Shown: in pieces, positions 14,133-25,030 of the stretch | Numbering within the stretch: position 1 is the first letter of the stretch | Layout of the letters: each line of letters begins with the position of its first letter | IMG/VR virus record: IMGVR_UViG_3300037805_000202 | Coordinates: 1 to 30,726 of that record | Direction: 5' to 3' (one strand) | From: a virus | DNA: 30,726 nt | Made by a program: the position numbers and the translations under genes | Notes under the pieces: generated by a model | What the model was told of the DNA's origin: nothing | The model's input: only the letters and a program-made list of their open reading frames with translations | Database searches by the model: none

Positions 14133-14523
14133 TGATTTAAACCACCTATATACTGACGATATAAAAATAGATAAAGCAGTAGACAGAGCTAAAACTTTAT
14201 TTGGTTCTAGAAAACTGTATACACTATACACGAAACTTGATGGAGATGTTGTTATATTTGATGATGTATTTATTCAGAAAGTTAGATATGCACTTACAAG
14301 TATGCATACAAGCCAGATGACACCGATAGAACTGCAGTTAGTTGAAGACATGGTAGAATACCAAAATACTGGGTACCTAGCTAGCAGAAACAACACAAGC
14401 GCAGGTAACCTTGCAAATTTACTAGATGACTACCTAAGTGACTCTATAGACTGTACTGTAATTGGTTCAGACTACGAAGATCACGAATGGATAAGTTGTC
14501 AGATTGAAGGAGAAGAGGCATAA
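14125..14523 (+). CDS. Unknown virion-region protein (132 aa)
   Basis: A 132-residue protein beginning MLNDLNHLYTDDIKID. A GTG at 14107 gives a form six residues longer, and neither start has a strong ribosome binding site. The ATG is preferred for its overlap with the preceding stop. It contains a mixed helix and strand region and an acidic end (DYEDHEWISCQIEGEEA). Its stop overlaps the start of the 770-residue fibre by one base (TAATG), suggesting a tail adaptor made together with the fibre. No family recognised. Confidence 0.65.
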   Translation: MLNDLNHLYTDDIKIDKAVDRAKTLFGSRKLYTLYTKLDGDVVIFDDVFIQKVRYALTSMHTSQMTPIELQLVEDMVEYQNTGYLASRNNTSAGNLANLLDDYLSDSIDCTVIGSDYEDHEWISCQIEGEEA

Positions 14524-16835
14524 TGGCTGATTTTATTGATGACTTACGGGACATAAAAGGGACTAGAGCTGGTGGGGCACAACCATCGGAAACTAAAACA
14601 TTTGAAGATGGTATATACGGGCACATCTTGTATATGCATGATGATACTATTGCTAACGTAAATGAGGTACAGGAAGATAGAGACGCTGTCCAAGTACTAC
14701 ATGATACTGTGGTTGAAAAAGAGGCACTAGCTAACCCTCACTACACTAATATAGACCTGATAGGTGATGCAATTGAGAATCACAACCTAAACGCTGTTGG
14801 TGACAATATTACCAAGGTTATTAGGGTTGCAGATGACTTACTAGAGACTATCTCGGAGATAGAAACAGTAGCTGACGATCTGAATGAAACTACTTCAGAG
14901 ATAGAGGTGGTTGCAAACGCTATTACGAACGTAAATATTGTAGGTTCAGGGATGTCAAGTGTGGCTACAGTGGCTACTGATATATCTAATGTTAGTGTAG
15001 TTAGCGATGCAATAATTAATGTAAACACGGTAGGTAACTCGATAGCTAATGTAAACACGGTAGCTGCTAACGATGTAGATATATCAATAGTGGCTAATGA
15101 CGTGGCTGATATAAACATAGTTGCCGCATCTATTGCAGAGATATTGCTAGCGGATAACAATGCTGCAATAGCCACGACTAAAGCATTAGAGGCATCAATA
15201 AGTGCCTCAGCTGCTCTAGTGAGTGAGGCTAATTCATTGGCCTCAGAAGCTGCGGCTGCAGTAAGTGAAACAAACGCTGCAAACTCAGAAGCAGGCACAA
15301 TAGCAGACGCCATAAGTACTGCTGCGGACCTAGTACAAACCAGCCAAGATGCAATAGATACAGCGGCTGACGTAGTAACTACAAATAACAATGTAGTATT
15401 AACTAATGCAGATGCTGCAAGTGCTAGCGTATCAGAGGCTAATTCAAATACATATATGACTCAAGCTTTAGCTCACAAGAATGCAGCAGAGTTGGCAGAG
15501 GTCCATGCAGAGACTGCAGAAACAAATGCAGAACTAGCTGAGACTCATGCGGAGACCGCAGAAGCAGCAAGTTTAGCGAGTCAAGCAGCAGCTTTAGCAT
15601 CACAACAATCAGCTACGGCTTCAGCAAACAGTGCAGCAGCTAGTGCTACAAGTGCAGGTAGTTCAGCTATAGATGCTCAATCAAGTGAAGACGATGCAGA
15701 AATATCACAAGTAGCAAGTGCCGCTAGTGCATTAGCGTCTAGCAATAGTGCAAGTGCTTCAAGTACAAGTGCAACCACAGCAACTACTCAAGCAGGAATA
15801 GCAACAGCAAGTGCTGCACTGACATCTGCTGACGTGGTATTAACACATGCGGATACAATATCAACTGCTTCTGATGCTACTCAAACAGCACTTGATAGAC
15901 TAGCTACTGCAGCCGACGTTGTAGCAACTAGTCAAGACGCTACAAATACTGCAGCAGATGTTATCAGTACTAATGCGGATGTAGTAGCTACACATAATGA
16001 TGTGGTGCTAACAAATGCTGATTCGGTAAGTGCTGGAACTAGTGCTGCTAATGCAAGTGCATCAGCAGCTACGGCTACAAGTCAAGCGGCTATAGCAACT
16101 ACACAGGCGGGCAATGCTAGTATTAGCGCAAGTAGTGCAGCAGTAAGTGAGACTAACGCTGGAATATCAGAAAGTAACTCTGCTTCAAGCGAGTTAGCAT
16201 CAAGCACGTCAGAGAATAATGCAGCTACAAGTGAGCTGAACGCTGCCAATAGTGCACAAACTGCTATAACTCAAGCAAGTAGTGCTAGTAGCTCAGCTAG
16301 TTCTGCACTAGCAAGTGAAGGTAAAGCAGAAAAATGGGCAGAAGAGCTAGAAGACGTAGAGGTTGAGACTGGTAAATATAGTGCTAAACACTATGCGTCT
16401 AAAGCTCAAACGTTCTCTAATTCAAACGTAGTGCATGTTAAATACTTGGATGCGGTAGTTAAAGGTGACCCTGTAAAGATTAGTGGATACAACCAAGGCG
16501 AGAATGCTATAGAAGTAGTAAGGTGTACTACGAACCAAGATATCTCCATAGGATTATCTATTGGAAGTTATGCACTAAATGAATTCGGGTATGCCATGAG
16601 TTCTGGGCTACTAGAAGAACTAGATACTAGTGCTTGGCCAGTAGGTACGATACTATATACAGACGGCACAGGATTGACAGATGTGAAACCTACGGTTGGT
16701 CACTACCAAGCAATAGCTTATGTAGTTAAAGATCAATTAAATAATGGTGCTGTTATGGTAAGTATAGCTGAACCTGTAGAAATCATAGGTACATATGCGG
16801 AATTCGAAACTGCATTTGATACTGCGGAGGCATAA
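14523..16835 (+). CDS. Large tail fibre with coiled-coil and Ala/Ser-rich repeats (770 aa)
   Basis: A tail fibre: the first 80 residues form a unique attachment part (GIYGHILYMHDDTIANVNEV); residues about 85-215 carry repeats of the NVNTVG/NVNTVA type, known from many marine and T7-like fibres; residues 215-620 are almost wholly Ala, Ser, Thr, Asn, Glu, Asp and Gln in coiled-coil-like repeats; then EVETGKYSAKHYASKAQ leads into a compact C-terminal domain of about 140 residues. The last residues are GTYAEFETAFDTAEA, a tag shared with the proteins ending at 18285 and 22290. Trimeric assembly is expected for this fold. It is first of the large fibres and probably attaches the rest. Confidence 0.9.
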   Translation: MADFIDDLRDIKGTRAGGAQPSETKTFEDGIYGHILYMHDDTIANVNEVQEDRDAVQVLHDTVVEKEALANPHYTNIDLIGDAIENHNLNAVGDNITKVIRVADDLLETISEIETVADDLNETTSEIEVVANAITNVNIVGSGMSSVATVATDISNVSVVSDAIINVNTVGNSIANVNTVAANDVDISIVANDVADINIVAASIAEILLADNNAAIATTKALEASISASAALVSEANSLASEAAAAVSETNAANSEAGTIADAISTAADLVQTSQDAIDTAADVVTTNNNVVLTNADAASASVSEANSNTYMTQALAHKNAAELAEVHAETAETNAELAETHAETAEAASLASQAAALASQQSATASANSAAASATSAGSSAIDAQSSEDDAEISQVASAASALASSNSASASSTSATTATTQAGIATASAALTSADVVLTHADTISTASDATQTALDRLATAADVVATSQDATNTAADVISTNADVVATHNDVVLTNADSVSAGTSAANASASAATATSQAAIATTQAGNASISASSAAVSETNAGISESNSASSELASSTSENNAATSELNAANSAQTAITQASSASSSASSALASEGKAEKWAEELEDVEVETGKYSAKHYASKAQTFSNSNVVHVKYLDAVVKGDPVKISGYNQGENAIEVVRCTTNQDISIGLSIGSYALNEFGYAMSSGLLEELDTSAWPVGTILYTDGTGLTDVKPTVGHYQAIAYVVKDQLNNGAVMVSIAEPVEIIGTYAEFETAFDTAEA

Positions 16836-16837
16836 AA

Positions 16838-17191
16838 ATGTTTGTACTAAGTGAAGAAATAAATATATATAGAGGATCTACGTATAAGCATACATTCTAC
16901 CTGGTTGATAATGATGGCGGGTTACTGGATGCGTCAGGTTACGAGGCTAGACTACAAGTGAAAGCTAAGCGCGGTGACATTAAAGTACTTGCTGACTTAT
17001 CAGAGTACTTAGATACAACGACATACGCTGCGCAAGGGATTATACTGTTAACTATCCCTCATGAATATACTTCTGGTACTACCCTTAGTAGGGGCGTATT
17101 TGATTTATTAGTTAAGAAGACTTTGACTGGCGAAATATCAAGAGCGGCAGTAGGAACACTTAAAGCTACAGATGGAATAACGAGGTTCTAA
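16838..17191 (+). CDS. Small tail/baseplate protein with BppU-like N-terminal fold (117 aa)
   Basis: A 117-residue beta-rich protein. The opening EINIYRGSTYKHTFYLVDND, then ASGYEARLQVK, follows the pattern of the N-terminal domain of upper-baseplate and fibre-linking proteins (R-G-D/S-T...F.L.D..G....GY.ARLQVR). Such domains often link a receptor-binding protein to the tail. It begins two bases after the 770-residue fibre stop, using GCGGAGGC in the fibre's last codons as ribosome binding site. The whole protein is the domain, so it may act as a separate clip between fibres. Confidence 0.65.
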   Translation: MFVLSEEINIYRGSTYKHTFYLVDNDGGLLDASGYEARLQVKAKRGDIKVLADLSEYLDTTTYAAQGIILLTIPHEYTSGTTLSRGVFDLLVKKTLTGEISRAAVGTLKATDGITRF

Positions 17192-17192
17192 T

Positions 17193-17477
17193 ATGGGAAA
17201 TCAAGAGATACTGCTGACAAGACCAGACACGCTTAATATAAGAGAGAACATAGATTCTCCAGAAGAGTATATAAAAGTACTACAAAATACTATATATACT
17301 CCAACCGAAGAGTCTCTCGAGAACTTCATGTCGCTGAATTCTCTGGATGCAACGAAGAACATAGTAAATCTGGCATCCGGGATAGATAGTAGGATACTAG
17401 ATATTGAAAATGATTATGTGACTGAAGCTGACGCAAATAAAATTGCTAACAAAAAAGCACTGATATACGGAGGGTAG
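17193..17477 (+). CDS. Unknown fibre-block protein (94 aa)
   Basis: A 94-residue protein, one base after the preceding stop. Charged and mainly helical (SPEEYIKVLQNTIYTPTEES; DIENDYVTEADANKIANKKA). No known family. In a block made wholly of fibre parts it is probably a small structural or chaperone component. One base separates it from the next gene. Confidence 0.6.
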   Translation: MGNQEILLTRPDTLNIRENIDSPEEYIKVLQNTIYTPTEESLENFMSLNSLDATKNIVNLASGIDSRILDIENDYVTEADANKIANKKALIYGG

Positions 17478-17478
17478 T

Positions 17479-17745
17479 ATGGGTAAATCATATACAGGTA
17501 ATATTACAAGTACTGAAGAGGAAGGCGTTATAGTTATAGCGGTAAACATATTTAACCCTGGAGCGTTAAACTCTATTGCAAAAATTAGCCTAACGGATAG
17601 TCTTGGAAAGTTAAGAGGCACTGTGTTAGAGAAGGAACTTAGACCTAAAGAAACTATATTCTTAAATACTAAGATGTTTATAGTTGACGGGGATACTCTG
17701 GTTCTGGAAGGCGCAGAATTTATAATAGCCGGGGAAGAAGTGTAA
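17479..17745 (+). CDS. Small beta-rich virion protein (88 aa)
   Basis: An 88-residue protein with alternating strands: GVIVIAVNIFNPGA, AKISLTDS, then LRPKETIFLNTKMFIVDGDT and LVLEGAEFII. The motif (K/G)ET..L..K....GDTL.V recalls small jelly-roll-like virion proteins found near phage tail genes, where they decorate or close the structure. It shares one base with the next gene (TAATG). Structural role likely; exact place unknown. Confidence 0.55.
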   Translation: MGKSYTGNITSTEEEGVIVIAVNIFNPGALNSIAKISLTDSLGKLRGTVLEKELRPKETIFLNTKMFIVDGDTLVLEGAEFIIAGEEV

Positions 17746-18035
17746 TGCTACTAAGTCTTACGGATATGCGATACTCTGCATCAACAATTGCAGTTCCCGA
17801 TAGAAGTGAAGTATATATTGATAGTAAAATAACGTACTGGGATGCAGATCTTGGAAGAAACTATATACTACTAGATCATGAACCGGATGGTGAAATAATA
17901 TCACTTGTGATAATGAAAGATGGAGAATCTCTTGTTGTTGACGGTAAACCTAACAGATCAGGCAAGAGAATAGAGTTTCTGTATGATGACAACCTTAACG
18001 GGTGTGAATCAGAAGTTAGATACCTAATTAGCTAG
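17745..18035 (+). CDS. Unknown fibre-block protein (96 aa)
   Basis: A 96-residue beta-rich, acidic protein (VYIDSKITYWDADLGRNYIL, then EIISLVIMKDGESLVVDG), translated by overlap with the preceding gene. It resembles a single beta-sandwich unit. No cysteine motif beyond one Cys near the end. It belongs to the group of four very small genes between the 770-residue and 707-residue fibres, probably accessory pieces of the same adhesion apparatus. Confidence 0.55.
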   Translation: MLLSLTDMRYSASTIAVPDRSEVYIDSKITYWDADLGRNYILLDHEPDGEIISLVIMKDGESLVVDGKPNRSGKRIEFLYDDNLNGCESEVRYLIS

Positions 18036-18045
18036 GAGAGTTGAT

Positions 18046-18285
18046 ATGTTACCACGAAGATATTTTGGAACCGCAAGTACTCACAGTACTGATGACATAG
18101 TAAGAACTAGGGACGCATTCAATACTAAACTAATTGATGCTAATGATGTCGCCGGAGCTGAGGCAGTCAAAGATATAATAAACATGCAGGATGAGCTTAG
18201 TGAGAGAATTACTAGCAACACTGGAATTCTTGATGTAATCGGCACATACGATGAATTCGAAGTATCATTTGATGCTGCTAAATAG
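18046..18285 (+). CDS. Short fibre-related protein with shared C-terminal tag (79 aa)
   Basis: A 79-residue protein. The N-terminus (MLPRRYFGTASTHSTDDIV) is followed by a helical stretch and then the final tag IGTYDEFEVSFDAAK, matching the ends of the 770-residue and 553-residue fibre proteins. TAGGAG stands before the ATG. Directly after the TAG stop, the -1 frame reads AAANKFGPSKTENWYRQ before its own stop, which looks like a fibre sequence. This protein may therefore be a truncated or frameshifted form of a longer one. As it stands it could be an adaptor carrying only the tag. Confidence 0.6.
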   Translation: MLPRRYFGTASTHSTDDIVRTRDAFNTKLIDANDVAGAEAVKDIINMQDELSERITSNTGILDVIGTYDEFEVSFDAAK

Positions 18286-18346
18286 CCGCTGCAAATAAAT
18301 TTGGTCCATCTAAGACAGAAAACTGGTATCGCCAATAGTGATATGC

Positions 18347-18369
18347 GTAATGTAGTAATACTGCATTAC
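18347..18369 (+). other. Strong hairpin in the leader of the 707-residue fibre gene
   Basis: GTAATGTAGT and ACTGCATTAC form a 10 bp stem (one G-T) around the 3-base loop AAT, 39 bp before the ATG. There is no T-run, so it is not a classical terminator. A 5' stem-loop like this can protect a highly used mRNA from degradation or mark a processed end. Confidence 0.55.
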
Positions 18370-18407
18370 AGAAGCATTCAATTGATAAAATAACAAAGGA
18401 AATAAAT

Positions 18408-20531
18408 ATGAGTACACCTACACAGTTTAGAAAAGTAGCCACTAAGGTTGCGCCACTATTTTTAACGAAAGTAGCATACACTGACATCGTTGATGATCTA
18501 TCTTCAGGGGGAACTGGAGTTCCGTTATCTGCGGAGCAAGGTAAACTTATAAGCACTTCAGTTTCACAAGAAGTTGCTGCTAGAGCACAAGCTATTCTTG
18601 ACTTAAAAGACGGAGTTGCTGTTGAGGGTAATACACTAAATAAGTTATACGGTAAGATTTCACAAGAAGTTACTGATAGATCTTCTGCAATTACTCAAGA
18701 AGTTGCTGACAGAGAGGCTGCAATCTTAGTTGAAAAAAATAGAGCCGAAGCTGAAGAATTAGCAATCAAAGGATTAGTTACTACAAGTAATTCTGATACT
18801 GATGCTGCAATTGCCGCTGAAAAAGCTAGAGCTGAAGCTGAAGAACTTAGAATTGAAGAAAAAGTAGATCAAGAAGTACTTGACAGAACTGCTGGAGATA
18901 CTGCATTAACTACTAAAATCAATACTGATATCGCTGCTGAAAAATTAAGAGCTGAAACTGCTGAGGGTGTAAACGCTACAGCTATCGCTACTGAAACTTC
19001 TGATAGAATTACTGCTGTAACTAATGAAGAAGTTGCAAGAGATGCTGCTATCCTTATTGAGACTAACAGAGCTGTTGCTGCTGAAGGTGTTAATACTACT
19101 GCAATTACTACTGAAGCAACTACTAGAAGTACTGCTGATACAACTTTACAATCAAACATTAATACGTTAGAAGGTGCTGTAACTGCTAATAAAACTGCTA
19201 TTGAAGCTTCATTAGGTAACGAAGTTACTGCTAGAACTACTGCTGATACTGCATTATCTGGAAGATTAACTGCTGTTGAAACAGTAATTACTGCTGGTGT
19301 TTCTTGGAAAGGTTCTGTAGCTGATATCGCTGCAATCGACGCATTAGACGAAACTACGTTACTTGCTGGTCAAGCTTACTATGTAACTGCTGAAAAAGAT
19401 GTATACGTTGTTCTTGCTGATCAAGGTGGAGATTACGTTCCTGCTACATTCACTACTAAATCATTCTTAAAAATCGCTGATTTCAAAGAATTATCTGGAT
19501 TAGTTGCTGCTGAAAAAGCTAGAGCTGAAGGTGCTGAAGCTACTTTAACTTCTGCTATCAATGCTGAAGTTACAAACAGAAGTAATGAAATCATCAGAGT
19601 TGAAGGTTTAATCACTGCTGAAGCTACTGCAAGAGGTAATGATATTACTACTGTTAATAATTCAATTGCTGCTGAAACTACTGCAAGAGAAAATGCTGAT
19701 ACAGCAATTACTACTGCATATACTGCTGCTGATAGTGCACTACAAGGTAATATTGATACTGAAGAAGCTGCAAGAATCGCTGCTGACACTGCATTAGACA
19801 CTGCTTATAAAGCTGCTGACACTGCTGCTAAAACTGCATACGAAGCTGCTGATGCTACATTAACTGCTGACTTAGCTTCTGAAGTTGCTAACAGAATCGC
19901 TGACGTAGATGCTGAAGAAACTAGAGCAACTACTGCTGAAGGTTCTCTTTCTGGTAGATTAGATATCGTTGAAGGTGACAACACTGTTGACGGTTCAATC
20001 AAAAAAGCTGTATTAGTTGAGAACACTAGAGCATTAGCTGCTGAGCAAGCTAATACTGACTTAATCAACTTAGAGATCACTAACAGAATTGCTGATGTTG
20101 ACGCTGAAGAATCTGCTAGACTTGCCGGTGATAACGCATTAGACGCTAGATTAGATGTAATCGAAGGTGATACTACGGTTGAAGGTTCAGTTAAAAAAGC
20201 TGAAATGGATGCTACTAACTACGCAATCGCTGCAATCGTTAGACCTAAGTTAGAAGGTAAAGCTGGTGACTTAATTGTTGCTGGAGATACTGTAACTGTT
20301 TCTAAAAACATCTTTGATGGTGAAAACGGAATTGTATTCGGTGAGGTAATTTGTTACCATGAGGGTGAGGCTGTAGCATGTAATGTTGCAACTGTATCTA
20401 ATAACGTAATTACTCTTCAAGTTGGTGAGCCAGGTGAATTTAATGGTGATGCATGTAAAGTTCATTACTTCTATGACTTAGCTTCTAACAATGGAGTTGG
20501 TGAGCATGGTGTTGGAGAGGGTGACATATAG
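18408..20531 (+). CDS. Long coiled-coil tail fibre (707 aa), separate transcription unit
   Basis: N-terminus with the fibre anchor-type sequence DIVDDLSSGG, then PLSAEQGKLIS, then long coiled-coil repeats of the EKxRAEAEE and ETTARENAD types from about 50 to 300. A small globular insertion follows at about 300-364 (VSWKGSVADIAAI, then AYYVTAEKDVYVVLADQGGD). More coiled coil runs to about 610, and a C-terminal beta-rich head ends the protein without the GTY tag. Codons are strongly biased to GCT, ACT, GAA, AAA, TTA and AGA, unlike its neighbours, as in a highly expressed or recently acquired gene. AAAGGA precedes the start. A hairpin lies before it and an intrinsic terminator after it. Probably an abundant fibre. 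Confidence 0.85.
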   Translation: MSTPTQFRKVATKVAPLFLTKVAYTDIVDDLSSGGTGVPLSAEQGKLISTSVSQEVAARAQAILDLKDGVAVEGNTLNKLYGKISQEVTDRSSAITQEVADREAAILVEKNRAEAEELAIKGLVTTSNSDTDAAIAAEKARAEAEELRIEEKVDQEVLDRTAGDTALTTKINTDIAAEKLRAETAEGVNATAIATETSDRITAVTNEEVARDAAILIETNRAVAAEGVNTTAITTEATTRSTADTTLQSNINTLEGAVTANKTAIEASLGNEVTARTTADTALSGRLTAVETVITAGVSWKGSVADIAAIDALDETTLLAGQAYYVTAEKDVYVVLADQGGDYVPATFTTKSFLKIADFKELSGLVAAEKARAEGAEATLTSAINAEVTNRSNEIIRVEGLITAEATARGNDITTVNNSIAAETTARENADTAITTAYTAADSALQGNIDTEEAARIAADTALDTAYKAADTAAKTAYEAADATLTADLASEVANRIADVDAEETRATTAEGSLSGRLDIVEGDNTVDGSIKKAVLVENTRALAAEQANTDLINLEITNRIADVDAEESARLAGDNALDARLDVIEGDTTVEGSVKKAEMDATNYAIAAIVRPKLEGKAGDLIVAGDTVTVSKNIFDGENGIVFGEVICYHEGEAVACNVATVSNNVITLQVGEPGEFNGDACKVHYFYDLASNNGVGEHGVGEGDI

Positions 20532-20540
20532 TCGCCTTCC

Positions 20541-20547
20541 CTGCCCT
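20541..20547 (+). promoter_or_regulatory. Possible antiterminator arm
   Basis: CTGCCCT can pair with AGGGCAG (20572-20578), the 5' arm of the following terminator, so the two hairpins exclude one another. It could set read-through from the 707-residue fibre gene into the next one. Confidence 0.35.
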
Positions 20548-20568
20548 GTATAAATAGATAGTAGATTT

Positions 20569-20602
20569 AATAGGGCAGTGTACTACACATTGCCCTATTT
20601 TT
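20569..20602 (+). terminator. Intrinsic terminator after the 707-residue fibre
   Basis: AATAGGGCA pairs with TGCCCTATT, with an inner GTGT/ACAC stem and small bulge, followed by Ts. It lies 38 bp after the fibre stop and 27 bp before the next gene. Confidence 0.85.
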
Positions 20603-20628
20603 AATTAATACAAAATGAAAGGATAATA

Positions 20629-22290
20629 ATGGATAACGTTACATATAACTTGCCGTCGAAGCAAGGAAATATAACTATACCACCTGGACAGAAGATAGTA
20701 TACAACGACCTGGAACTTCTAGGTAGAGGAACATCTAACTGGGGTGACGAGTTCAATGGAAACTACATTAAACTTGATGATAAGATTAGTGACAAACTAA
20801 GTGCTGTAATTAATCAAGATATCATACCTGACGTTGCAGATACTTATACACTTGGTTCTTTAGAGAAACCATTTAAGGATCTATATGTAGGTGCTAACTC
20901 CTTCTACGTTAATGGCCAAAAAGTAATCAGTGACAATTCCGGTACTATTGTACTTAGTGCTGATAATGACCAGAATATACAGATCAAAGCTAATGGTGGT
21001 GGTGATATTGAATTCTACCCATCAGGTACTGGTAATATTGAAATGAAAGGTACTGTTGAGATTGCTGCAGGGAAGTTGCTAAGAACTAGCGATGGTTCTA
21101 CGCTTACTATAAATAACTCTATCTCTGTTGATGGTGATGTATCTGCAGACTCATTCAATGGTAAGACTATAGAAGTTAATGTTCCAGCTGATGCAGTATT
21201 CACGGATACAATTGTAGATATTAGTGGTAAAGTGGATAAAATTGATGTACTGACTGCTACAAGTTCAAGCAATAAGATTGTTACTCAAAGTGATATTTCT
21301 GCACTTGGTAGTGGAGACATGGTTCAGTCAGTGTATGATACTGATGGAAATGGAATTGTCGATAAAGCTGAAGATGCAAACACAGTAAATGGATTCAATC
21401 TAGAGGTAAGCGTGCCTCATGATGCAATATTCACTGATACGTTGTACGGTAAGCCTGCATCAGAACCAATTTCATATATCGCTGGGCTTCAAGTAGAGCT
21501 GGATAGTAAACTTGGTTCTGAATCATTAACTACATTAACTTACATAGGTAATAAGTTAAGGTATACGGATGAGAATGGCGGAGTGTCTGAAATTAGTTTA
21601 AGTGAGTACATAGATGATACTAATCTTGCTAGAGTAACTTCTGGAGCAATCGCACCGGACGGTATAGCTACATTCTATAGAGATGACGCAACTACGTTCA
21701 CAATTGATATGAGTTCATTCTTAGATGACACAAACCTAATCACATCTGTTGCAGGTAAGACTGGGTCTGTTATACTAGTAAAGAGTGACATAGTTGACTT
21801 CGATGATTCTGACTACGCTGCTGCTTCTCAGGGTATTAAAGCTGACACTGCTGTGCAACCGAACAGTAACGTGAGTATACTTGCTAATGATGCTGGGTAC
21901 ATTACTGTCGCTGACGTACCTACGAATGTAAGTGAACTAGCTAATGACGCTGGGTATATTACTATTGCTGGTATATCTGGTAAGGTTGACAAAGTTACAG
22001 GCAAAGGATTATCTACTAATGATTATACTTCTGCTGAAAAAACTAAACTAACTAGTGTAGAGGCTGGGGCTACGGCGGACCAGACTAAAGCAGATATTGA
22101 TGCATTAGGTATTAATTCTGCAACAGTTAACGGTAAAAACGTACAGAGCGATGTTCCAGCTAATGCTGTGTTTGTTGATACAATATACGACGATTCTACT
22201 TTAAGCTCTAGGGTAGCTACGTTAGAGACTGCTGATAGTAATCATGGTACTTACGCTGAGTTTGCTGCTGCATTCGATGCTGCTAAATAA
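20629..22290 (+). CDS. Tail fibre/spike-like protein with shared C-terminal tag (553 aa)
   Basis: A 553-residue beta-structured fibre. Residues 1-45 are an attachment region. Residues 60-150 carry the DTYTLGSLEKPFKDLYVG type pattern seen in phage fibres, and NGK...VPADAVFTDT-like segments occur at about 176-196, 254-273 and 501-521. Residues 301-368 form a module also found at 33-101 of the 863-residue fibre. ILANDAGYITVAD and ELANDAGYITIAG are adjacent repeats (417-449), and GKGLSTNDYTSAEKTKL is a familiar fibre peptide. The last 15 residues, HGTYAEFAAAFDAAK, are the shared tag. AAAGGA precedes the start. Terminators lie on both sides, so it may be regulated on its own. Confidence 0.85.
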   Translation: MDNVTYNLPSKQGNITIPPGQKIVYNDLELLGRGTSNWGDEFNGNYIKLDDKISDKLSAVINQDIIPDVADTYTLGSLEKPFKDLYVGANSFYVNGQKVISDNSGTIVLSADNDQNIQIKANGGGDIEFYPSGTGNIEMKGTVEIAAGKLLRTSDGSTLTINNSISVDGDVSADSFNGKTIEVNVPADAVFTDTIVDISGKVDKIDVLTATSSSNKIVTQSDISALGSGDMVQSVYDTDGNGIVDKAEDANTVNGFNLEVSVPHDAIFTDTLYGKPASEPISYIAGLQVELDSKLGSESLTTLTYIGNKLRYTDENGGVSEISLSEYIDDTNLARVTSGAIAPDGIATFYRDDATTFTIDMSSFLDDTNLITSVAGKTGSVILVKSDIVDFDDSDYAAASQGIKADTAVQPNSNVSILANDAGYITVADVPTNVSELANDAGYITIAGISGKVDKVTGKGLSTNDYTSAEKTKLTSVEAGATADQTKADIDALGINSATVNGKNVQSDVPANAVFVDTIYDDSTLSSRVATLETADSNHGTYAEFAAAFDAAK

Positions 22291-22305
22291 TTCAACGTGA
22301 CTTAA

Positions 22306-22337
22306 GGATATACTAGGTATAATCTAGTATATCTTTT
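22306..22337 (+). terminator. Intrinsic terminator after the 553-residue fibre
   Basis: GATATACTAG and CTAGTATATC form a 10 bp stem around GTATAAT, followed by four Ts. It is 16 bp after the stop codon. Confidence 0.8.
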
Positions 22338-22375
22338 CGGTAGACCTAAATAACGTCTAAAAACTTATTTGAGTA

Positions 22376-22438: not shown

Positions 22439-25030
22439 ATGAGTATAGTACAACAAATGGGTACTAAAACCGGTGCCGAATTCAAAGCCCATAGGCTGAG
22501 AATTGAAACACTAGAAGATTTTTCGGAAGCTACTACAAGCTTAAACCTTGTAGGCAATCAGTTAGAGTATACTGACGAAGATGGTGTAGTTACTACACAC
22601 GACTTATCATTATATTTAGATGACACAAATTTAGCAAGGCTAGTTAATGGTACACTAGATAGTCAAACGGGTATAGCAACTTTTACAAGAGATGATGGAT
22701 CTACATTTACTGTAGATTTTAGCGCTTTCTTTGATGACACACAAGTTGTTGTTAATGATACTTTAACAAGTACTTCTACTACAGAAGCATTATCAGCTAA
22801 TCAAGGTAAAGTGTTAAATGCTAATAAGTTAGGTATTAACGCAAAAGCAGTTGACTCTGATAAACTAGATGGTAAAGACAGTTCAGAATTTGCTTTAGCT
22901 CATTCACATCCATTTGCAAGTGATACACATAATCATGATACGAATTACTTAGGTATAACAGCTACTGCATCAAATGCTAGTAAGCTAGAAAATAAAACTC
23001 TAGCTACTATTAAAACAGAAGTTGTTGATTCTATTGTTAATGGTGCTGGTGGAGCGTATGATACATTAAAAGAATTAGAAACTGAAATAAAAGCTAATGA
23101 TGGTGATATTTCAACTGTAATTACTAATTTAGGTGATAAGGTAAGTAAAACATCATCACAAGCTATGAGAGCAACAGATGCTTTAACTGTTAGTGATGAC
23201 ACAATTACTATTCATAAAGGTGATGGAACTAGTGAATCTGTAAGTATTGCTGATTCTAATACTTGGAGAAGTATTTCTGATAGTGTAACATCTACAAGTA
23301 ATTCGGTATCTGCTTCATCTAATGCAGTTAAGACTGCTTACGATAAAGCTAATCATTCACATCCATATTTAGGAAGTACAGCAAAAGCTGTTGACTCTGA
23401 TAAACTAGATGGACAACACGCTAGTGCTTTTGCTACTAGTGCTCAAGGAACACTAGCAACTAATGCTTTACCTAAAACGGGTGGCACTATGACTGGCAAG
23501 TTGACCCTTAATGCAGTCACACCTCAAATAGACTTTAACGGTACCTCAGATAGTGGTGTTGATATGGCTATTAAGGCTACTCCGGAAGGATTGGATTTCT
23601 TTGAGCCTGAAGATAGTAATAAGATACATTTTCAAATACTAGATGATGCTGGGGTAAATGCACCTTATGGTTATAAGGTAGGAACTACATCGGTTATTGA
23701 ATCAGATGCTAAAATCGATGCAAACAAGATTAAAAACGTACCTGCTTCTTGGCTTATAGGTGATACAGATACGAACACTTGGAGAAGTATTTCTGATAGT
23801 GTAACATCTACAAGTACAAGTGTATCTGCTTCATCTAAGGCTGTTAAGACTGCTTATGATAAAGCTAATCATTCACACAACTACTTACCTAGTTCTGGTG
23901 GTAGAATTGACAATGGTACTAATACTACAGTTGAAATCAAATGTGATGATGCTGGTAAAGCTATGCTTAATGTTTCAGGTGATGGACAAGGTACTGGTCA
24001 AGTATATGTAGGTCAATCAAATGATCATGGTGGTGGTATCGAATATAACGGAGATAATAATCCTAGTACAACTGGTGCTGGATCTGACCATATTACATTA
24101 TTTAGAAAAGCTGCTGGAACTTACACATGGACTGCTAGAAACCAGGTTAATAGCAATAACTGGGAATTTAGAGGTGATATTAAAGCACCAACATTTACGG
24201 GTACTGCATCAAATGCTGATAAATTAGATGGAATTAATAGTTCTCAATTCCTAAGAAGCGATGCAGATGATACTATGAACGGGACACTTACTCTACAATC
24301 AACTGGTTCTGTAGGTATAAATATTAATGCTGACACAGATAACGCTACAGAAACAGATTTGCCATTTATGAAGATGACTCAAGATGGCGGAATAGGAGAA
24401 TTAACTGTAGGTGTAGATAACAACAGTCCGTATATTTTCCCAAACCGTACAGATAATGCTGACCAAAATAGTGATAATAACCAACTGCATATTAAGCAAA
24501 AAAATGGAACATTTGGGAAGGTATGGCACTCACTTAATGATGGCGCAGGTTCAGGATTAGATGCTGATAAGTTAGACGGTAAAGATTCAAGTGCATTCAA
24601 CCAAATAATTGGTACTGATAGTGATATCAATACTTCAGGTGCTACAATTGTAGATAATATTTATGTAACTGATGGTGTTATTACATCAATGGGTACAAGA
24701 ACATTAACACCTGCAGATATTGGAGCAGCTACTACTGCAGATTTAGCTGGTGGGTTAACTGATTCTGGGCATAGTTACGCTACTAACGGTTATCAAAAAT
24801 TAAGCAATGGTTTGATTATTCAATGGGGTAAAAAACAAGGTGCAGGGAAAACTCTTGTAACTTTCCCTATTGCTTTCCCTACTGCATGCTTAAATGTAAA
24901 CTTAGTTACTCAATATAACGGCTATACTACAGCAAATGGTAATATATACCCAACACCTACAACAACTAGTTTTTATGGGCATATATACAACACATCTTAC
25001 TATGGATACTGGTTCGCAATAGGATATTAA
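22439..25030 (+). CDS. Receptor-binding tail fibre with gp53-like C-terminal domain (863 aa)
   Basis: Residues 1-32 are an attachment segment, followed by the shared module at 33-101 and the fibre peptide NDTLTSTSTTEALSANQGK. KAVDSDKLDGxxxS repeats occur at about 136, 317 and elsewhere (ADKLDG family, typical of T4-type long fibres), and LPKTGGTMTGKLTLN is another known fibre repeat. The C-terminal 80 residues (GYQKLSNGLIIQWGKKQG, then TFPIAFPTACLNVNL, ending FYGHIYNTSYYGYWFAIGY) match the gp53-like C-terminal domain that binds the host receptor in many phages. Two 101-bp direct repeats lie inside. AAAGGA ahead of the start. A fibre-assembly-like gene follows directly. Best candidate for host recognition. 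Confidence 0.9.
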   Translation: MSIVQQMGTKTGAEFKAHRLRIETLEDFSEATTSLNLVGNQLEYTDEDGVVTTHDLSLYLDDTNLARLVNGTLDSQTGIATFTRDDGSTFTVDFSAFFDDTQVVVNDTLTSTSTTEALSANQGKVLNANKLGINAKAVDSDKLDGKDSSEFALAHSHPFASDTHNHDTNYLGITATASNASKLENKTLATIKTEVVDSIVNGAGGAYDTLKELETEIKANDGDISTVITNLGDKVSKTSSQAMRATDALTVSDDTITIHKGDGTSESVSIADSNTWRSISDSVTSTSNSVSASSNAVKTAYDKANHSHPYLGSTAKAVDSDKLDGQHASAFATSAQGTLATNALPKTGGTMTGKLTLNAVTPQIDFNGTSDSGVDMAIKATPEGLDFFEPEDSNKIHFQILDDAGVNAPYGYKVGTTSVIESDAKIDANKIKNVPASWLIGDTDTNTWRSISDSVTSTSTSVSASSKAVKTAYDKANHSHNYLPSSGGRIDNGTNTTVEIKCDDAGKAMLNVSGDGQGTGQVYVGQSNDHGGGIEYNGDNNPSTTGAGSDHITLFRKAAGTYTWTARNQVNSNNWEFRGDIKAPTFTGTASNADKLDGINSSQFLRSDADDTMNGTLTLQSTGSVGININADTDNATETDLPFMKMTQDGGIGELTVGVDNNSPYIFPNRTDNADQNSDNNQLHIKQKNGTFGKVWHSLNDGAGSGLDADKLDGKDSSAFNQIIGTDSDINTSGATIVDNIYVTDGVITSMGTRTLTPADIGAATTADLAGGLTDSGHSYATNGYQKLSNGLIIQWGKKQGAGKTLVTFPIAFPTACLNVNLVTQYNGYTTANGNIYPTPTTTSFYGHIYNTSYYGYWFAIGY
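23261..23361 (+). repeat. Internal 101-bp repeat of the 863-residue fibre, copy 1
   Basis: Encodes TWRSISDSVTSTS to YDKANHSH-like sequence. It is identical in length to copy 2 at 23777-23877, with 8 mismatches counted by eye. Recent duplication within the fibre shaft is likely. Confidence 0.85.
23777..23877 (+). repeat. Internal 101-bp repeat of the 863-residue fibre, copy 2
   Basis: Second copy, 516 bp downstream of the first. Mismatches are clustered around the SNSVSASSN/STSVSASSK positions. The long identical stretches make it a possible site of homologous deletion or duplication. Confidence 0.85.

Follow-up and report, generated by a model that had tools for sequence, protein, structure and literature searches.

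A conserved C-terminal peptide on three fibre-block proteins of a marine N4-like phage and its candidate role as a plug for the next fibre segment

Three proteins in the fibre block of a marine N4-like phage share one short C-terminal peptide (the tag), which on balance probably serves as a C-terminal plug that would dock on an N-terminal socket of the next, separately encoded fibre segment. Tag and candidate socket recur in other phages at opposite ends of their chains, covary between neighbouring proteins and are often carried by adjacent genes. The window, i.e. the whole stretch of DNA analysed here (30,726 nucleotides, to which all positions below refer unless a locus is named), is a 30.7-kb fragment of an N4-like podovirus (Schitoviridae). 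Its TerL is ~34% identical to Schitoviridae over ~95% of the length and 30 to 37% identical to eight N4-like terminases, that of Alteromonas phage AD45-P4 among them, and its portal belongs to phrog_1216 (E 1.7e-170). Terminase and portal flank the fibre block here as they do in other N4-like phages, and the block contains the following features, with tag and socket ranks taken from the HMMs described below:

14523..16835, + strand: 770-aa fibre protein, anchor/coil and a C-terminal domain of probable beta type, then the tag (ORF; phrog tail-fibre matches)
16788..16832, + strand: tag 1, GTYAEFETAFDTAEA, end of the 770-aa protein (rank 34 of 10,256 ORF ends)
16838..17191, + strand: 117-aa protein, phrog_1084 (E 3.5e-14)
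18046..18285, + strand: 79-aa protein, predicted long helix plus tag (ORF; AlphaFold2 single sequence)
18142..18282, + strand: 47-aa coiled-coil-plus-tag module of the 79-aa protein (blastp)
18241..18282, + strand: tag 2, GTYDEFEVSFDAAK, end of the 79-aa protein (rank 55 of 10,256 ORF ends)
20629..22290, + strand: 553-aa fibre protein with terminal tag (ORF; phrog_22284 tail fibre, E 1.6e-17)
22147..22287, + strand: 47-aa coiled-coil-plus-tag module of the 553-aa protein (blastp)
22246..22287, + strand: tag 3, GTYAEFAAAFDAAK, end of the 553-aa protein (rank 32 of 10,256 ORF ends)
22439..25030, + strand: 863-aa distal fibre with a gp53-like C-terminal tip and no tag (Pfam PF21882, E 1.3e-16 at residues 787-863)
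22439..22516, + strand: putative socket, N-terminus of the 863-aa fibre, MSIVQQMGTKTGAEFKAHRLRIETLE (rank 5 of 4,291 N-termini, HMM of the C N-termini of other phages)

The initial annotation had described the 770-, 79- and 553-aa proteins as otherwise unlike proteins sharing a terminal tag, and both the ORFs and their tags are present as described. All three tags lie 14-15 aa from the chain end, and no further window ORF end gives a clear match among all ORFs of at least 30 codons. For this composition, the chance probabilities of 9, 10 and 11 matches over 14 residues are 1e-7, 4e-9 and 1e-10 per pair, respectively. The description as otherwise unlike holds for the three proteins outside their ends, but two of them, of 79 and 553 aa, have their last 47 aa in common (36%, E 4e-5 by blastp), made up of a short coiled coil and the tag. 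This module also matches the end of a fibre protein of L004, a distant N4-like phage (E 2.7e-4), and the 770-aa tag is preceded not by it but by a different domain, which its sequence suggests to be beta-type. Neither the 79-aa protein nor the L004 fibre yielded any relatives in searches. Residues 42-248 of the 770-aa protein are 40% identical to the 1236-aa fibre of AD45-P4 (E 4e-25), and the 553- and 863-aa proteins have a 76-aa module in common (54% identity). Directly after the stop codon of the 79-aa gene, the -1 frame (18283-18337) reads IAAANKFGPSKTENWYRQ, which resembles fibre-tip motifs and is possibly a decayed tip; a readthrough or frameshift extension of the gene had no database match.

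Over 13 tag codons, each pair of window tags has 3-6 identical codons, 3-7 synonymous and 3-4 non-synonymous differences, in agreement with the earlier observation that the tag DNA differs mainly at silent or conservative sites, and the flanking DNA is 10-47% identical in register, i.e. near random. The silent differences and unrelated flanks rule out a recent 3'-end duplication as the origin of the tag, and the predominance of silent changes indicates either that selection has maintained the peptide since an ancient shared origin or that it arose by convergence. Nor does the tag lie mainly within a known fold, as no Pfam or PHROG domain covers it; a search of the PDB found no solved structure showing it.

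IMG/VR was searched with back-translated tag patterns and 84,980 prokaryote genomes with a similar pattern. A fibre gene shortly after the terminase of L004 ends in SLNSRIDSIGTYDEFILAFDAGSL, and Bacteroidales prophages encode small coiled-coil proteins that carry the tag 22-25 residues before the end. Every fibre-like protein identified (the three window proteins and those of L004, L119, L123, L124, L165 and L166) has the tag at its C-terminus or close to it (14-25 aa from the end). Internal GTYxEF matches occur in unrelated proteins at about chance level, and a match at the end of an ATPase resembling an ABC-F protein (L125) was judged unrelated. Four tag-bearing proteins are encoded by one Bacteroidales genome, and the L166 block contains two unlike ones, of 582 aa (Flg_new repeat) and 187 aa (YadA_stalk). 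Strong matches among 393 Bacteroidales genomes scanned were confined to that one genome, whose own tags were among the seeds, indicating a rare but clustered motif, the pattern that joint action of the tagged proteins would be expected to leave. The Bacteroidales tag proteins match phrog_4757, and the gene following several of them encodes a probable membrane protein, not a socket. At two Bacteroidales loci (L165 16476-17003 and L124 2278-2952), proteins made of repeated LTFxxFV units adjoin the tagged proteins. The close TerL relatives of the window phage, L039 (68%), L040, L041 and L043, lack the tag, which rules out its inheritance with the N4-like core and suggests that it travels with fibre modules.

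A tblastn search with a Bacteroidales tag protein led to Pseudomonas phage SM1 gp70, ending in GVGDPEQDLVAVYNAAKA, and from there to at least 114 phage records with a broader motif, [IL]G-(D/N/T)-(P/Y)-x-[DE][FL]xxx[FY][DNE]x[AG]-end, of which the window tag is one form. In homologous proteins, the Bacteroidales and SM1-type tags fall at equivalent positions of the alignment, and hhalign places the two tag types in register (P 9e-5, probability 59%). Phages of Pseudomonas, Gordonia, Caulobacter, Sinorhizobium and Rhodococcus carry the C-terminal tag on two unlike neighbours, here called B and C, with the endings TPEIDLVLLFNNALT and NPENDLVAVFEAALV in Gordonia phage Nadmeg and DDVDFVLIFNAGL and DPDTNFVAVFNTGLT in Caulobacter phage BL47. 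RedWattleHog has three tagged proteins, and some tag-bearing B proteins are just 44-48 aa long. Most of 14 further loci, which were picked by similarity to protein C and are not a random phage sample, have the gene order A (usually small; phrog_1084 or similar), short B, coiled-coil C (phrog_4757 where scanned) and D. The phrog_1084 family opens this cassette and is found just upstream of the tag proteins in phiM12 and SM1; in the window, the gene for the 117-aa phrog_1084 protein lies four genes upstream of the 79-aa tag gene. Within the cassette the peptides are partitioned, B having the C-terminal tag only, C an N-terminal motif as well as the tag, and D the N-terminal motif and a tip only, its end being without the tag. 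An HMM of the C tags (last 11 residues), built solely from the tags of other phages, places the three window tags within the first 55 of 10,256 ORF ends (group p 0.0013; p 4e-8 with all GTY-type tags pooled) and also ranks B ends highly (p 8.5e-9), although the B tags of Pseudomonas phages are too divergent to be captured.

The N-terminal motif common to C and D is MSLxxLxxLAxxIGxEFKxxR, and with an HMM of the C N-termini the nine D N-termini all come out on top of ~4,300 (ranks 1-9). Applied to genes directly downstream of tag genes, this HMM ranks a 576-aa protein of L033 first among 4,291 N-termini, the window 863-aa fibre fifth, and the corresponding proteins of L119 and L166 23rd and 121st; the L033 protein follows a 138-aa protein ending in IGTVAAFEAQLS. 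The enrichment depends on position, being evident downstream of tag genes (p 0.006) and not upstream of them (p 0.72). The score of the 863-aa N-terminus is weak alone (7 bits, E 1.4) and gains weight from its rank and from its position directly after the tagged 553-aa gene. No other window protein has a notable score, leaving one recognisable socket for three plugs, and the products of the genes after the 770-aa gene (117 aa) and the 79-aa gene (707 aa) score at background. A socket motif derived from Bacteroidales N-termini alone had no match in the window, the HMM from cassette proteins being needed to detect it. Past the 553-aa gene, positions 22300-22340 read as a hairpin-like GATATACTA...TAGTATATC followed by TTTT, which probably serves to terminate transcription between the tagged gene and the candidate socket gene.

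Tags of B and C resemble each other more within one phage than across phages (13 pairs, p 1e-4; 8 clades, p 0.008), and the N-terminal motifs of C and D covary as well (p 5e-4; 8 clades, p 0.005), phylogeny being partly controlled in these permutations by using one phage per clade. The tag is absent from fibres in which the segments are fused: the single 1236-aa chain of Alteromonas phage AD45-P4 combines the 770 and 553/863 modules, and in POA1180 the coil runs straight on towards the tip. The initial annotation had proposed docking, trimer capping or chaperone recognition as the role of the tag, and docking emerges as the best supported of these given the tagless fused versions, the covariation of neighbouring tags and the frequent location of a gene with the shared N-terminal motif directly downstream. 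Covariation between C and D, together with the downstream socket genes, supports the plug-and-socket form of docking in particular. We envisage that a Gly-Thr turn would begin a short amphipathic helix, N-capped by a T-x-x-E type motif and bearing a hydrophobic Tyr/Phe/Phe stripe, and that this stripe would bind the N-terminal socket motif of the following protein. The helix is a prediction from sequence to which single-chain AlphaFold2 models add weak support at best: the 79-aa protein is modelled with a helix at residues 15-69 and its tag at low confidence (~55 pLDDT), and a Bacteroidales 130-aa protein (pLDDT 48, weak) with the tag as helix 108-119. In cassette phages, the simplest reading is a relay in which B (plug) would be linked through C (socket and plug) to D (socket and tip). 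In the window, the plug of the 553-aa protein and the socket of the 863-aa fibre form the clearest candidate pair. The 770- and 79-aa plugs may also use the 863-aa socket, or else a hub, for which the 117-aa phrog_1084 protein is one candidate.

The alternative that survives best, albeit an unlikely one, is that every tag binds a common hub or adaptor at the head or tail collar instead of the next fibre segment, so that the same docking place would call for the same tag. Such a hub would account for three window plugs facing one recognisable socket and for the tag on the very short B proteins, and phrog_1084 genes adjoin tag genes. The profile of the A protein (phrog_1084) weakly matches the T5 collar protein p132 (E 0.067), an anchor of side fibres with a BppU-like Ig fold (PMC10038345). 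Against this stand the directional adjacency from tag gene to socket gene and the N-terminal motif that C and D have in common and that covaries between them. Trimer capping, in which three short helices would fold back on the coiled-coil end and lock the fibre in register, fits poorly and is improbable; the tag usually does follow a coiled coil (YadA_stalk in the L166 187-aa protein, helix 15-69 in the 79-aa protein), but it also follows globular domains (the 770-aa protein and the L166 582-aa protein with its Flg_new repeat) and ends peptides of 44-48 aa, and neither B/C covariation nor a downstream socket is predicted by capping. Chaperone recognition or an assembly-quality signal could draw on the small 116-aa protein after the fibre block, assuming that this is a chaperone, and on the fibre chaperone known in an Alteromonas schitovirus (PMC10579305). 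It is nevertheless the least supported of the proposed roles and very unlikely, because the 863-aa fibre adjoining the 116-aa protein ends in a gp53-like tip without the tag, and tagged proteins are also present in phages where no chaperone is recognised in the vicinity. We give as little credence to the tags being functionless inherited remnants of a truncated tip domain or of old 3'-end shuffling, for which the tip likeness of IAAANKFGPSKTENWYRQ and the 47 aa common to the 79- and 553-aa proteins might be cited, since the peptide is kept through many silent changes and recurs with covariation at chain ends in unrelated phages, and the IAAANKFGPSKTENWYRQ extension itself lacks a database match.

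Returning to the plug and socket, we suggest tentatively that many unrelated groups of tailed phages may use a common peptide code of this kind to chain fibre segments, the two peptides coevolving within each phage as a pair that would allow segments to be swapped by recombination. No earlier description of such a code was found in the open literature searched, where the peptide GTYAEF, the phrase "conserved C-terminal peptide" combined with tail fiber, and six variants of the DFVAxF core were each in no paper. Little is understood of how phages join several fibre proteins when a large anchor domain is lacking, and most such small fibre genes carry a hypothetical annotation. If a plug/socket pair can be read, sequence alone would predict which fibre proteins touch and in what order, and the pair would explain the exchange of fibre parts between unrelated phages.

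Shared endings of other types were also observed. In N4-like relatives (L029 6474-7813, L027 2782-3790, also L030, L022 and L031), several unlike small early proteins upstream of the terminase share the ending (K)YPE(Y/I/L)(F/Y)(I/V), e.g. KYPEYFI, KYPEIFV and KYPELYI, which is another shared C-terminal tag, on early genes. Three small early proteins of Vibrio phage PG11 (L037 13693-14809) have a common C-terminal stretch of the W..EQKRDNFKCLD type. At L023 (4250-7013 and 8064-9592), adjacent fibre proteins of 814 and 102 aa end in S(V/I)ALG, and proteins of 156 and 70 aa in LEQG(G/S)IDGN, both possible further tag types.

Branched or modular receptor-binding systems, as in podoviruses and Klebsiella phages, join separate fibre or spike proteins via conserved terminal parts, for which they use folded anchor or branching domains, whereas the shared element here is ~15 C-terminal residues. 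Endings of the GTENEYNYIYQKDPNTLYLIKG type are common in phage structural proteins, and one terminates gp68 (FibU) of Staphylococcus phage 80alpha (L208 1724-2896). FibU (PDB 6v8i; PMC7048315) has a collagen-like part, no density beyond residue 123, and a LVDSAPESMNTLRELAEAI coil that is also seen in tag proteins. It resembles the cassette fused into one chain, and differs in being a single fused chain with GTENEYNYIYQKDPNTLYLIKG in place of the tag, an ending that may be a distant relative of it. The host-recognition module of Alteromonas schitovirus A5 (PMC10579305) belongs to the same N4-like family and genome region and has a fibre beside a small chaperone; no shared C-terminal tag was found at that locus. 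Also among the systems closest to the window is the B-C-D cassette of Gordonia, Pseudomonas, Caulobacter and Sinorhizobium phages (phrog_1084 or similar, B, and phrog_4757 annotated as 'head fiber' or 'tail fiber'), in which two or three unlike neighbours likewise carry a C-terminal tag of the same form, with a phrog_1084 gene upstream in both and a socket-bearing protein, a candidate one in the window, downstream. The window differs in that none of its fibre-block proteins matches phrog_4757, and in a tag that has T-Y where the cassette has D-P and that sits on large N4-type fibres.
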